Source of the DNA: Halorubrum xinjiangense
GTDB lineage: Archaea; Halobacteriota; Halobacteria; Halobacteriales; Haloferacaceae
Direction: 5' to 3'
NCBI RefSeq assembly: GCF_900102375.1
Contig: NZ_FNBO01000001.1
Coordinates: forward strand, 1 to 64,000
Length of the DNA stretch: 64,000 bases
In this document: positions 5,812 through 61,588 of the stretch, piece after piece
Layout of the letters: each line of letters starts with the position of its first letter
How positions within the stretch are numbered: the first letter of the stretch is position 1
Translations under genes and position numbers: made by a program
The notes under the pieces: generated by a model
Told to the model about the DNA's origin: nothing
Database searches by the model: none
Seen by the model: the letters and a program-made list of their open reading frames with translations, nothing else

Positions 5812-6566
5812 CGGCCGTACCCGGTCGAGCGCTCGCGGCGGCGGTCCGCGTCGCGGTCGGCCGGGCCGCCGTCGGCGTGGTTGCGAGCGGTGGCGTACGC
5901 CTCGCGGACGCGCCGGAACGACTCCTCGTCGCCGCCCTGGTCCGGGTGCGTCTCCTTGACGCGCTCGCGGTAGGCGCCCTTCACCGCGTCGAGGTCGGCG
6001 TCGCGGTCGAGGCCGAGCTCGTCGAAGGCGTCACCGACGGGGTCTGCGCGGCCGGCGGGGGCGCGCGGTCGCGACGCGCCCGCGGAGCGGTCGGCCCCGA
6101 AGCGACCGCCGCCGAAGCGGCCGGAGCCGCCGGCGCGTGAGTTCGTCGACTCGTCGGTCGCCCAGTCGGGCTCGTCGACGTCGAAGGGGAGCCGGCGGCC
6201 GAGCCCGCGGCCCGGCATCTCGTGCTCGCAGAGGACGGTGTAGACGCCCTCGCCCTCCAGCCGGAAGTAGTCGTGCGCGTCGAAGGTGATGGCGACGCCC
6301 CGCTCGGGGAGGTAGAAGGGAACCGAGACGCCGTCGAATCCGTGGTCCTCGGCGAAGCGCTCGCCGGCCGCGGTCAGGTACGTCCGGATCTCGCGGCGGC
6401 GGCGCTCGTCGCCGGCGGCGCCGCGGCGTCCGGTCGCGGCGGCGGGAGGGGGGACGAACCGGTCGCCGAGGTAGAAGGCGAGCGCGACGACCGCGGTGGC
6501 GACGGCACCGAGGCCGATCCCCCAGAGGACCCACCGCGGCACCAGCGTCGTGAGCTCGGCGAACAC
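5808..6566 (-). CDS. Membrane-anchored J-domain protein
   Basis: A 252-residue protein with one N-terminal membrane helix (about residues 10-32) and a J domain at the C-terminus. The J-domain signature His-Pro-Asp is present in KETHPDQGGDEESF, so it could stimulate an Hsp70/DnaK partner. The middle has a conserved-looking folded segment, then an Arg/Gly/Ala-rich linker. It lacks the Gly/Phe and zinc regions of DnaJ. The helix implies the J domain sits at the cytoplasmic face of the membrane. It overlaps the phosphoesterase gene by four bases and lies just downstream of a 40-bp tandem repeat array. Confidence 0.85.
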   Translation of the reverse strand: MFAELTTLVPRWVLWGIGLGAVATAVVALAFYLGDRFVPPPAAATGRRGAAGDERRRREIRTYLTAAGERFAEDHGFDGVSVPFYLPERGVAITFDAHDYFRLEGEGVYTVLCEHEMPGRGLGRRLPFDVDEPDWATDESTNSRAGGSGRFGGGRFGADRSAGASRPRAPAGRADPVGDAFDELGLDRDADLDAVKGAYRERVKETHPDQGGDEESFRRVREAYATARNHADGGPADRDADRRRERSTGYGR

Positions 6567-6614
6567 ACCCGCCGTAGCGGCTCCGCGGTAATCAACCTCC
6601 CGCCGGCGCGTCGG

Positions 6615-6812
6615 CTACGGCGACAGCGGATTCGCGAGAACAGCGGTGCGTCAACTACGGCGACAGCGGATTCGCGAGAACAGCGGTGCGTCAACTACGG
6701 CGACAGCGGATTCGCGAGAACAGCGGTGCGTCAACTACGGCGACAGCGGATTCGCGAGAACAGCGGTGCGTCAACTACGGCGACAGCGGATTCGCGAGAA
6801 CAGCGGTGCGTC
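6615..6812. repeat. Five perfect 40-bp tandem repeats
   Basis: Five head-to-tail copies of a 40-base unit beginning CTACGGCGACAGCGGATTCG start at 6615, 6655, 6695, 6735 and 6775; the last lacks its final two bases. The copies are identical over their full length. The period is not a multiple of three and there are no spacers. The array occupies most of the 258-bp gap between the MTH865-like gene and the J-domain gene, in front of the latter. Confidence 0.95.
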
Positions 6813-6824
6813 GTCGCTCGCCGG

Positions 6825-7082
6825 TCAGATCATTCCTTTCGCTTCGAGCCCGTCGAGGATGTCGTCGACGAGCGCTTCGGCGTTGTCGTAGGGAAACTCC
6901 TGTTCACTGCCGAGCTTCGCCGCCATCTCCATCGCGGTGAAGCTCACATCACCGGCCTCGAACTTCGTCCCCGGACCGTCCGGCAGCGCCGGGACGAGGT
7001 CCATCTGGTTCTCGACGGGGAAGTCTGCGCCGCCGAACGCGTCCATGAACTGTTCGCGGAGTTCCGCTTTCACGTCGCTCAT
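6825..7082 (-). CDS. MTH865-like small protein
   Basis: An 85-residue acidic protein that matches the MTH865-like family, a small helical domain found across archaea with no established function. The ATG giving MSDVKAELREQF is preferred over a GTG two codons upstream. Features include a Phe/Gly-rich segment near residue 17 and a helical C-terminus ending in LEAKGMI. It stands alone, read away from the dispersed element at 7189-7514. Confidence 0.8.
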   Translation of the reverse strand: MSDVKAELREQFMDAFGGADFPVENQMDLVPALPDGPGTKFEAGDVSFTAMEMAAKLGSEQEFPYDNAEALVDDILDGLEAKGMI

Positions 7083-7188: not shown

Positions 7189-7514
7189 CGAACACCGCCA
7201 GAGCCCCAGCCGTTCGCTTATAAATCGGTAATAGTAGATCGACAGCGAACACCGCCAAAGCCCCAGTCGCGAGGCGGGCGCACGCTAGTTGCGCTCCTCA
7301 CTCGGTCGCTACGGCTCCCTCGTTGCGGTGCTTACGTCGCCTGCGCCCGCCTCGCGACTGCCCCTTTGAGTCCCGCCCCGCACAGCGACCGCAACCGCAC
7401 CTCACGCCTCCCCAGCGTCGTCGGCGGTCCTCCGCTTCGCTCCGGATCGCCGACTCCCTCGCGCGTGCGACTCACGGCCGCCTCCGGCGGCCGCTCGTCG
7501 GCACGCGCCACCGC
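7189..7514 (+). repeat. Dispersed structured element, copy A
   Basis: One of four related elements in the window. In its own direction it has two leader units 57 bases apart (CGAACACCGCCA at 7189 and 7246) with a TTATAAAT box between them. Next comes a 19-bp perfect stem with arms 7264-7282 and 7342-7360 and a 59-base loop. The core TTTGAGTCCCGCCCCGCAC follows, then a hairpin CGGCCGCC-TCC-GGCGGCCG at 7475-7493, and the end GGCACGCGCCACCGC at 7514. A TTTATAAGTGA lies just beyond. Frames across it are not conserved between copies. The rest of the gap to the M42 gene (7515-7683) holds only that gene's weak promoter region. Confidence 0.85.
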
Positions 7515-10240: not shown

Positions 10241-10710
10241 GCGGTGGCGCGCGCCTGCGAGCGGCCGCCCTCGGCGGCCGCGAGGAGCACGCGCGAGGGA
10301 GTCGGTCGCCGAGCGAAGCGACGGCGACCGACGAGGTTGGGGAGGTAAGAGGTGCGGGGCGGTGCTGTGCGGGGCGGGACTCAAAGGGGCAGTCGTGAGG
10401 CGGTCGCAGGCGTTCACGAGAGCAAAGCTCTCGTGAGCCAATCAGAACGCTCCGCGTTCTGATGACGACGTAAGGACCGCAGGGCGGGAGCGAGCGAAGC
10501 GAGCGACCGAGGACCGCAGCGAGCGTGCGACCGCCTCGCGGCTGGGGCTTTGAAGATGTTCGTCGTCGATCTACAATCAGTTATTTATAAGCGAGCGGCT
10601 GGGGCTTTGGCGGTGTTCGCCGCCGATCAGCAGTCGAGTATTTATATGAGAACGGCTGGGTCTGTAGGGCGGCTTCGTCACCAGTTCGGTATAGCCTATA
10701 TATACACGTC
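10241..10710 (-). repeat. Dispersed structured element, copy B (reverse orientation)
   Basis: Read on the minus strand, this copy has leader units whose CGGCTGGG motifs (plus strand) sit at 10653, 10596 and 10539, exactly 57 bases apart, each with a TTTATA-type box. The long stem uses arms 10526-10544 and 10390-10408, pairing with G-U or single mismatches. Its loop holds two extra perfect hairpins, TCACGAGAGC-AAA-GCTCTCGTGA and ATCAGAACGC-TCC-GCGTTCTGAT (plus strand). The TTTGAGTCCCGCCCCGCAC core, a 9-bp GGCCGCC hairpin and the GCGGTGGCGCGC end at 10241 follow. The 633-bp gap around it shows no other gene. Confidence 0.83.
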
Positions 10711-24456: not shown

Positions 24457-24865
24457 AGCTATAGCTTTTATAAATGGTTGCTGGTGGATCGGCGGCGAAC
24501 GCCACCAAAGTCCCAGCCGTTCGCTTATAAATGGCTGATCGCGGATCGGCGGAGAATACCGCCAAAGCCCCAGCCGGGAGGGCGGCGCACGCTCGCTGTC
24601 GTTCGAAAGGCGCTTTGCGCCTTTCGTCATGACGAGACGCCGGAGGCGTCTCGAACCACGCGCTTCAGTCGCTCACTCCGTTCGCTCCTTCCAGTGCTTG
24701 CGTCGCCTGCGCCGCCCTCCCGGCTGCCCCTTTGAGTCCCGCCCCGCACAGCACCGCAGCCTCACACCTCCCCAGCCTCGCGGCTCCCTCCGCTTCGCTC
24801 CGGTCGCCGCGTCCCTCGCGCGTGCTGCTCGGCCGCGGAGCGGCCTCACAGGCACGCGCCACCGC
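24457..24865 (+). repeat. Dispersed structured element, copy C
   Basis: Leader units with TTATAAAT boxes (near 24468 and 24523) and CAGCCG motifs at 24514 and 24571 are 57 bases apart. The long stem has perfect 19-base arms at 24571-24589 and 24708-24726, with a sequence different from copy A yet fully complementary. The loop contains two nested hairpins, CGAAAGGCGC-TTT-GCGCCTTTCG and GAGACGCC-GGA-GGCGTCTC. The core TTTGAGTCCCGCCCCGCAC, a GGCCGC-GGA-GCGGCC hairpin (24831-24845) and the GGCACGCGCCACCGC end follow, then TTTATAAGTGA. The remaining bases up to the ABC gene hold no other gene. Confidence 0.85.
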
Positions 24866-24976
24866 ACTCGGTCGGTTCTTTATAAGTGATCCGCGGGGCG
24901 GGAGCCGAGATCGTCGGAACCCGGAACGGGCCGCCGAGGCCGCCGGATACATGGGGATCGCCGCGTTGCTACCCGC

Positions 24977-32318: not shown

Positions 32319-35300
32319 TCACGATCCGGGTCCACGGCGCCGAGCGAGCAGCGAGGCGGCCCCGACCGCCGCGAGCGACGCGAGGGGGCCGAATCCGGGG
32401 AGGTCGTACGCCGTCGATCGGATCGGCGCGTCGTCGTACCCGAGGTCACTCGCGTCGGTCTCGTCCGCGGACCGACCGCTCGGCGCGGACGAATCGCCCG
32501 GCGCCGACGAATCGCCCGATTCGGAGATATCTGATGAATCCGTCGACTCGTCCGATGGTGTATCCGACGGCGCGTCGTTGCGTTCGCCTCCGGCGTCGTC
32601 AGGCTGCGCGCCGACCGACCGAGACTCCCCGCCTGCGGGGCCCTCCGCGCCGCGCTCGGGCCGACCGGCGTCGAACAGCCCCGACGGCCCCGCAGACCGC
32701 GGTATCTCGGACGTACCGGGAGCGATGGAGATCCCCACCCCGGGACGCGGCCCCGAGCGGTTCGCGTCCGACTCGGACGACCCTCCGGCCGAACTCGGCC
32801 CGCCAGCGCCGGCCGCGGTGCCACCACCGGTCGAGTCGGGAGAATCGGCGGCGCTGCCGGACCCAGCGGAGCCGCCGGTCGAACCACTGCCTCCAGCCGA
32901 ACCACTGCCTCCAGCCGAACCACTGCCTCCAGCCGAACTACTGCCTCCAGCCGAACCACTGCCTCCAGCCGAACCACTGCCTCCAGCCGAACCACTGCTG
33001 TCGCCGGCCGAACTGCTGCCGCCGGCCGAACCACTCCCGTTGGTCGTGCCGGATTCTGACGGGCCACCGTCGGTTGGTGCCCCGGACGAGTTGGACATCT
33101 CGGCGTCGGCGGACTGGTCCGTATCAGTCGTGTTGCTGTCGGCAGTCGACGTCTCCGAGTCGGCGGACTGGTCCGTATCAGTCGTGTTGCTGTCGGCAGT
33201 CGACGTCTCCGAGTCGGCGGACTCGTCCGTATCAGTCGTGTTACTGTCGGCAGTCGATATCTCGGTGTCGGCGGACTCGTTCTTCTTAGTCGTGTCGCTG
33301 TCGGCAGTCGACGTCTCGGACTCGATAGACTTGTTCGTCTCAGTCGTGTTGCTGTCGGCAGTCGACGTCTCGGACTCGATAGACTTGTTCGTTTCAGTCG
33401 TGTTGCTGTCAGCAGTCGACGTTTCGGAGTCGGCGGACTCGTTCGTATCAGTCGTGTTGCCGTCGGCAGTCGACGTCTCGGTCGCCCCGTCGGCCATCTC
33501 GTTTTCCGTGGCCTCGTCGGTCGAGTTCGGTGCGGCGTAGGCCAGTTCAGCCGTCACGCGGTGGCGGCTGTCCGCCGCGGTCCGGCGCAGTCGGTCGTCG
33601 TCGACGCGAAACGCGGCCGCGAACGTCTCGCCGGGATCGGGTGCCGTCTCGGTGCCGAACGCGCGCTCGCCGTCGGCGACGAGGTACAGCCCCTCGCGGT
33701 CGAGGTGGACCGCGGACTCGTTCGGCGTCGTCCCGAGCGCGTCGCCGTCGACGGTCTCGTTGTCGTCGCTGGTCTCCGCCGGCGCGACCCCGAACGAGAA
33801 GCCGTCGAGTCGGTCGAGATCCGCGCCGCGGTCCAGCGAGGCGTTCGCGGTCGCCGGGAGACCGGTCAGTCCGGTCGCGTTCACGGCGTACACGACGGTG
33901 TCGTTCGCGGTGGCGTTCGGTTCGGGCGTGAGCGTGCCGTCGTCGATCGCCTCCCGGATCGCGGTCGCGTTTTCGAACCCGTCCGGGGAGACCTCGCGCG
34001 TCGTGTACGCGGTCAGGTTGTTCGTCGAACGGGGGCCTACGGTGACCGTGGCGGTGTCGTTCGCGATTTCGGTGCCGTGTTCCGACCGCAGCGTGAGGTC
34101 GTACGTCCCGGGCGAGAGCGGACCGGTAGATCCCGTGACCGATTCGACGCTGACACCGCTCCCGGTCGCGGCGAACTCCGACGGGGAACCCGGTGACGCG
34201 TAGGTGTTGAGTGTGACGGGGCTAGGGCCTCTCTCGCTGGTGTTCAGTTCGAGTGTGGTGGTGGTGTTACTAGTCGTATTGGTAAGTGTCAAGTTCAAGT
34301 ATGGAACACTATGGAAGACCGACGTTCGAATGTAATTCCCGTAAACAGACCGATTTGGGGTGTGATTTAATTCTATTCCCTTCTCGCCCTTACCAATGAT
34401 GTTGAAATTTTCTGAGTTTCTTTTTGATGAGTGAACGTAATATGTACCAGAGGAGAGCCTAGATGTGTTGTATCCGACTTTGGATGAATTATTTATTCTA
34501 GTTCCCACAGAGACGACACGAGCTTCGTTTTCATCGACTACTTTGTGTAGTTCGATAGAATTTTCTTTTAATGATGAATTGATATAAATATGTTGTCCAG
34601 AATATACCGGCTTATTTAGTGAACGATTATAATTGATTTGGATATCAGTACCTAAATGAGATTTATTCGTGTTGAATGGTTCTTCTATTGAAATTATTCC
34701 AGCATCCGCAACACCGTCAGAGACGAACTGGTTATTTAGATCCGAGTTCCGGAGCAACTCGAAGTTTTGAGGAGAGATTTGGTCGCCAGTCTCGTGGCCG
34801 CGTGAAAGTTGAATTGCCGCAGCATAGCGGTTGCTGTGGTAAATTCCTGATTTATTGTTGGGAGTATTGAAATAAAGGGCAACATTATCATTCCATCCAG
34901 TCAGGACCCTAGAGTTAGCAATAGTTACATTTTGTAACATATACCCGGTTGAGTTGACTGGGTGTAACGAAACAAAAAATGGCGTTTCGTCTTGAATAGT
35001 GTCTTTGACTGTAGCGCTAGAAACTATGATTTTGTCTGTCTGTGGAGACTCATACGAGCGATTTTTGAGATTAACCTTCGCATTGAGTATCCGCCCTGTA
35101 TCCCTTGATAAAGCAGACTGTGCTACGTTGTGGGATAAACTATCCCGGATCTCGTAGTCAGCATCTCCAAGCGTAGAATTAGCAATAAGAAATGCCTTCA
35201 CATCACCACCAGGATAGGATGTATCAACAGAAACCGTTCGTCTTGTTCTAAGAACATTTTCAGGAAGAGGCCGAATTCCAATGATTTCATTCTCATCCCC

Positions 35301-61149: not shown

Positions 61150-61588
61150 AGGAGGTCGTCAACGATCCGGCCGTCCACTTATAAATAGCCGGTGTAGGAT
61201 CGGCAGCTACGAGCGCCAAATCTCCGACCGCTTATTTATAACTAGTTGTTAGCAGATCAGCGGCGGACACTGCCAAAGATTCGGCCATTCGCTTATAAAT
61301 GAGTGACTGCGGATCGATAGCGAACACCGCCAAAGCCCCAGCCGCGAGGGCTCGGTGCGCTCGCTGCGCGCCTCGTTCGTTCGCTCCGCTCACTCACTGC
61401 GGTGCTTACGTCGCGCGGCTTCGCCCTCACGGCTGCCCCTTTGATTCCCACCCCGCACAGCGCCTCACGCCTCCCCAGCCTCGCCGCTCGCTCGGGGCTC
61501 CCTTCGGTCGCCCACGTCGCTCGCGGCGTCCCTCGCGCGCGCTCCTCGCGGCCGCCGCCGGCGGCCGCTCGCAGGCACGCGCCACCGC
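61150..61588 (+). repeat. Dispersed structured element, copy D
   Basis: Three leader boundaries (GCCAAA at 61215, 61272 and 61329) are exactly 57 bases apart, each with a TTATAAAT or TATTTATA box. The stem is 13 bp with one mismatch (arms 61339-61351 and 61423-61435); the rest of the arms has eroded. The core reads TTTGATTCCCACCCCGCAC, two changes from the others. A 9-bp hairpin GCGGCCGCC-GCC-GGCGGCCGC and the GGCACGCGCCACCGC end at 61588 follow, eight bases before the stop codon of the convergent PHP gene. Confidence 0.82.

Follow-up and report, generated by a model that had tools for sequence, protein, structure and literature searches.

Why should the two arms of a long hairpin change together between the copies of a dispersed repeat? 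The question is raised by four copies, A to D, of an element lying in the first 64,000 nt of a contig of Halorubrum xinjiangense (GCF_900102375.1, NZ_FNBO01000001.1, positions 1-64,000), hereafter the window. An earlier note on the window had pointed out that the arms of copies A and C differ in sequence while each is perfectly complementary to its partner. Both copies do pair at 19/19 bases, 24571-24589 with 24708-24726 in copy C and 7264-7282 with 7342-7360 in copy A. Dinucleotide shuffles of the window give 0.05 (copy C) and 0.23 (copy A) as the expected number of such arms at three or fewer mismatches. The G-U pairs ascribed to copy B are also present (10390-10408 with 10526-10544; two U.G pairs as read on the window's plus strand). 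Copy D (61340-61435) has a stem of a second type; its helix is shorter, and is extended to 13 bp in like copies. R1, a covariance model built from the hairpin, matches hairpin 1 of all four: on the minus strand in copy A (7256-7368, 125.1 bits), copy C with its base helix (24563-24734, 84.9 bits) and copy D (61331-61443, 95.2 bits), and on the plus strand in copy B (10382-10552, 70.5 bits), which is oppositely oriented and has a different loop insert. The four are best explained as members of a family of intergenic elements that extends through the haloarchaeal class.

In copy C, the element, whose folded strand is taken to be the minus strand, extends from about 24468 to 24889 and is described here along the plus strand. 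The range 24571-24726 given in the note does hold the first hairpin, but the helix continues below it and the element is larger. At one end lie two tandem units with a 57-bp spacing (24468-24581; 83% identical 52-nt direct repeats). Each unit carries TTATAAAT and ends in a CCAAAG(C/T)CCCAGCC box, the second unit continuing into the first arm. The base helix is formed by CAAAG of the plus strand (24563-24567) and CTTTG (24730-24734) across an internal loop that reads GGG/GGG on the minus strand, and 99.2% of its cells are paired in alignment A1 (see below). With this helix, hairpin 1 is 104-120 nt long; its first arm on the plus strand (24571-24589) becomes the 3′ arm when the hairpin is read on the minus strand. 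The apical loop of copy C holds a foreign double-hairpin mini-element of 62 bp (24598-24659), which by itself matches plasmids of several haloarchaeal genera at 79-95%. The loop of copy B (about 10410-10470) contains a different double-hairpin mini-element, and copies such as L035, L062, and L090 have an insert starting with TTCAC at the same loop position.

Beyond the second arm (24708-24726) comes a conserved linker, CCCCTTTGAGTCCCGCCC ... CTCCCCAGCCTC (24727-24779), followed by hairpin 2 (24780-24810). The stem of hairpin 2 is GCGGC/GCCGC in copy C and of other sequences elsewhere; its fitted stems comprise 1074 Watson-Crick, 3 G.U, 4 A.C, and 49 other cells. Hairpin 3 (24818-24859), as read from the sequence and from the fold of copy A, consists of GCGCGTGC/GCACGCGC enclosing GGCCGC-GGA-GCGGCC. 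Just beyond the right end stands a TATA-box-like TTTATAA (24879-24885), a possible promoter of a minus-strand transcript; 46/95 copies have an exact TTTATAA no more than 27 nt past the right end, as against 0.15% of shuffled tails. Read along the minus strand, two further variable hairpins lie upstream of hairpin 1. Along that strand come, in turn, the box GGG(T/C)GGGACT(G/C)AAAGGGGC, a long helix whose sequence is free, an internal loop that is conserved, the tip, and then GGGGCTTT(C/G).

The source genome (3.26 Mb) harbors about 160 copies of this intergenic element of about 430 bp. The linker is found at 160 places genome-wide at three or fewer mismatches (control, 0), and the end of the tandem unit at 297 places (reversed-pattern control, 2). 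Within the genus Halorubrum, the element occurs in 48/52 genomes with 0 to 185 matches per genome; since 4/52 genomes have no copy at the search sensitivity used, the element is not essential. A pattern search returned 108 stretches, and the 80 among the matches listed all belong to Halorubrum or to the uncultured archaeon A07HR67; the named set from this search was selected by an exact GGCTG..., so that one kind of mismatch cannot occur in it at position 4 of the stem. According to a rough gene call, based on a home-made acid-composition score and not on a gene finder, 110/111 copies are intergenic. Convergent gaps are enriched (44/111 copies versus 107/450 background gaps), as would be expected of an ordinary terminator or insulator between genes. 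However, all four orientations of neighboring genes occur around the copies, and an element of about 430 bp with promoter-like boxes, other conserved boxes, and a GA-rich tip exceeds what a terminator needs; we give this explanation almost no credence. A fixed orientation toward the neighboring gene was also considered and was not seen among the 111 copies.

The note took coordinated changes as the sign of selection for base pairing, and suggested aligning the copies and counting the compensatory changes. Among the copies of the source genome, 112 of 114 have both arms; 80 of these, on which the position table is based, are paired without a gap at no fewer than 16 of the first 19 positions, with complete pairing of the 19 in 46 copies. 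A broader set of 338 distinct copies from several genomes gave 320 stems, including 57 distinct stems that are paired throughout their fitted length. Alignment A1 comprises 100 of 130 hairpins chosen from the 338 copies on the plus-strand 5′ arm alone, with the partner arm disregarded. In A1, 98.0% of 3565 pair cells are paired, compared to 84.1% after partner shuffling and 27-49% when the partners are slid. Changes on both sides are found in 27/36 pairs, and there are 470 double-change cells versus 133.9 in the shuffles; none of 500 shuffles reached any of the measures. Alignment A2, ungapped, with 39 of 40 rows of length 112 (L069, which has a second-type stem, was dropped), is 99.0% paired with 152 double-change cells versus 37.0 shuffled. 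RNAalifold, unaided, returned the same fold on A2 plus three more pairs. Thus, the arms do not vary independently, and the count bears out the note's reading of the coordinated changes.

Such matching could also arise if one arm were copied onto the other through palindrome correction or conversion, with no selection on folding, a mechanism that the note itself had named as a possible refutation. Swaps of G-C for C-G without intermediates are common among the 320 stems, commoner than stepwise change through wobble pairs would give. Furthermore, a motif search showed the interior to be inverted relative to the arms in at least 5/320 hairpins (L098, L169, L257, L275, and L294), and therefore the arms do recombine. 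One more inverted interior, in L267, was seen by eye. Arm copying may thus contribute to the change through inversions and swaps, but it leaves unexplained the fixed unpaired positions that persist inside the helix (GGG/GGG, G.G, and tandem G.A), the 2-bp steps of the loop that covary between conserved GA dinucleotides, a wobble bias on one strand, and the class-wide conservation of boxes outside the hairpin. As the sole cause, we regard it as improbable. Selection on folding fits best, with arm copying as a possible contributor.

The loop steps and the wobble bias also bear on which strand is folded. On the minus strand, the apical loop consists of facing NNGA modules ([NNGA]n), in which 2-bp Watson-Crick steps alternate with tandem G.A, and its tip is closed by a loop of 3 or 4 nt. 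Two, three, or four modules fit 270/338 copies, and 68 fit none. In the three-module class (96 distinct loops), 164, 179, and 187 of 192 positions are Watson-Crick at the three steps, where shuffling gives means of 91.8, 101.1, and 142.3, respectively; each step covaries. Mismatches in the stem of hairpin 1 (320 stems) amount to 71 A.C and 23 G.U on the plus strand. These are reversed on the minus strand, where wobbles moderately outnumber A.C mismatches. Position 4 of the stem supplies 36 to 5 of this bias; the remainder is 35 to 18 (p = 0.027). A1 as a whole shows 51 G.U versus 34 A.C on the minus strand (p = 0.08), with 14 of the 34 A.C cells in one column, which we tentatively attribute to second-type stems. 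Because position 4 supplies so much and A1 gives p = 0.08, the wobble bias supports the minus strand but does not decide for it. The NNGA modules are more telling.

We therefore correct the strand read in the note: the informative strand is the opposite, minus one. An RNA of the plus strand as the selected molecule was set aside, as its mismatches favor A.C and the GA modules occur only on the minus strand. It speaks against the minus strand that the plus strand, too, folds better than its shuffles, with z -6.1 compared to -4.8 for the minus strand.

Many sites are common to several species while the hairpin at the site turns over. Copies that share both flanks form 39 groups. At the site of copy C, 30 orthologous loci (its own included) comprise 22 with the hairpin, two with remnants, and six with none, an occupancy biased upward since the compared loci were mostly fetched for holding copies; the hairpin is present in 18/18 of the loci that are followed by an ABC transporter gene. 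Among hairpins under 130 nt, those at a shared site resemble each other (identity 0.835, 49 pairs) no more closely than random pairs do (0.824, 154 pairs), where the flanks are about 0.89 identical, and stem types switch at one site. These observations are what the exchange of whole hairpins between dispersed copies would produce, each copy receiving a ready-made pair of arms with no ongoing compensation. However, 188 copy pairs, also of hairpins under 130 nt, whose loops are within 3 nt of each other show 475 compensated versus 231 single-sided stem differences, and so whole-hairpin exchange is insufficient; nor can it create 57 distinct perfect stems. We consider it very improbable that exchange acts alone.

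The hairpin retains its shape while the sequence of its stem is free, in Halorubrum and in the 14 other genera examined. R1, whose E-values are rough, matches 118/167 genomes of the family sample and 203/292 genomes (59/77 genera) of the class sample. In the phylum sample, the 22/196 genomes with a match belong without exception to the same order or to nearer groups, and no genome listed beyond the order has one (154 non-matching genomes are not itemised). In all three samples, the number of matches taken per genome was capped. The 14 genera were picked for strong R1 hits, and 33 of 38 matches were examined, as weaker second matches in five loci were dropped. The box just outside the model adjoins 32/33 of these hits, compared to 9.7% of random positions. 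All 33 have the NNGA tip, and GGCTGGGGAGG lies upstream in 13/33 (4.0% at random). The stems outside Halorubrum are of other sequence, yet 94.0% of 1331 cells are paired and 32/36 pairs have double changes in an alignment obtained by fitting to R1, a procedure that favors the fold. One locus from another genus (L345, about 1300-1510) has tandem units with a AGAAAGCCCCGG box beside the hairpin, as in Halorubrum. A genome of a different genus (G062, e.g., L202 and L220) has a fourth stem type and the variant box TTTCAG.

G.T wobbles, tandem G.A, and GAA triloops are stable in DNA as well. Hence, the hairpin could instead be selected as single-stranded DNA, as the folded strand of a non-autonomous mobile element that an enzyme supplied in trans recognises, in the manner of REP, PATE, or IS200-like ends. 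The high copy number and the intergenic dispersal would suit such an element, and so would the oppositely oriented pairs of hairpins about 150-370 bp apart in two genomes (G255 and G349), as if doubled head to head. The loop insertions also recall the insertion of SMR-A into PATE palindromes, as described in parts of PMC3119063. Against this, copies at sites common to many species still pair, where an immobile relic should decay. G255, with its 84 hairpin matches, has no TnpB (PF07282) match, and the six Y1 transposase matches in the source genome all lie away from the 100 copies listed of 160. Among three candidate sites compared, the two alignable ones without the element revealed neither a target duplication nor a clear boundary. 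We thus view selection as single-stranded DNA as unlikely. An origin from plasmid or phage was rejected, as the plasmid matches are partial and no phage record matched the element.

Among described haloarchaeal elements, the palindrome-associated transposable elements (PATEs) of Haloquadratum and other haloarchaea are the nearest kind, judging from parts of PMC3119063: they, too, are non-coding, a few hundred bp long, palindromic, and a target of small mobile repeats. In copies B and C, the loops hold double-hairpin inserts whose placement recalls that of SMR-A in PATE palindromes. PATEs have no terminal inverted repeats, target duplication, or transposase gene; our element of about 430 bp is too short for a transposase, and its boundaries were not fixed by the two aligned empty sites. 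In contrast, PATEs are tied to IS605-type ends, and our element has no TnpB link, as judged by TnpB matches in G255. The species-shared sites, class-wide fold, covarying stems, and tandem TATA units set it further apart. Transcription of a 489-bp PATE in a Halorubrum virus runs mostly in the reverse direction (PMC10544981).

REP/BIME with RAYT combine a tagged palindrome of 20-40 bp with a Y1 gene, unlike the 104-120-nt hairpin with no Y1 match near the listed copies. MITEs have transposon-related terminal inverted repeats and target duplications, features for which the two empty sites gave no clear boundary. The IS200/IS605 omega RNAs of haloarchaea (RF02656 and RF02657) are structured transcripts of repeated elements, as our element would be if transcribed. 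At the gathering score, Rfam reported only tRNA in the window and 12 further loci, with no RF02656, RF02657, or other family, and permissive Rfam searches with copies C and A yielded no relevant match.

The note called coordinated changes unusual in dispersed repeats, which is too strong, since dispersed repeats with a structure are known, ERIC and REP among them, and in BOX the number of middle modules varies. ERIC, BOX, and REP/BIME are likewise dispersed intergenic repeats that fold. They are bacterial, and the haloarchaeal element differs in its larger multi-hairpin fold, its GA steps, and the almost complete turnover of its stem sequence, a distinction drawn by description. No description of the hairpin element was found in mainly open-access literature, where the conserved boxes were also sought as letter strings, including sections of PMC3119063, PMC10544981, PMC5018182, PMC6749651, PMC6011602, PMC12558985, PMC3733652, and PMC4666352. 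What is new is the architecture and its range, neither of which was found described; dispersed structured repeats as a kind are already known. The element is probably an undescribed structured element acting at the RNA level.

On balance, we lean modestly towards the view that the minus strand folds in single-stranded form, RNA being the likeliest, that selection acts on its folding, and that the sequence turns over by exchange and compensation. Transcription of the minus strand would perhaps be driven by the TATA box that lies past the right end. With the usual archaeal spacing, however, we estimate that a TATA box about 10 nt outside would place the start about 16 nt inside hairpin 3, cutting its helix, which speaks against this promoter. 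The folded RNA may be bound through its shape by a predicted host protein, with the conserved loops and boxes as putative contacts. Exchange between copies, together with compensating changes under selection for folding, would then account for the turnover.

A bolder proposal, which we advance tentatively and with some doubt, is that of a class-wide haloarchaeal family of non-coding RNAs reaching about 185 copies in a genome, almost all of them paired, with a free stem and a modular tip of 2-bp steps and tandem G.A. Such a family would have to be read by shape alone by a host protein or enzyme, each genome expressing a large RNA library from shared intergenic sites. Should the fold be maintained for its own sake, then haloarchaea harbor, in very many copies, a structured element that is so far undescribed. 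It would amount to an unusually clear natural experiment on the structure of RNA (or of a single strand), in which a very large set of stems builds one shape from different letters. It would also offer a testable target, namely the protein reading that shape, as well as a model for the in-place turnover of dispersed repeats.

Two further repeats lie in the window. Upstream of copy A, tandem 40-bp repeats are present in 6 copies in register (6564-6852), and 32853-33536 is occupied by tandem repeats with units of 18 and 54 bp that look like coding sequence.
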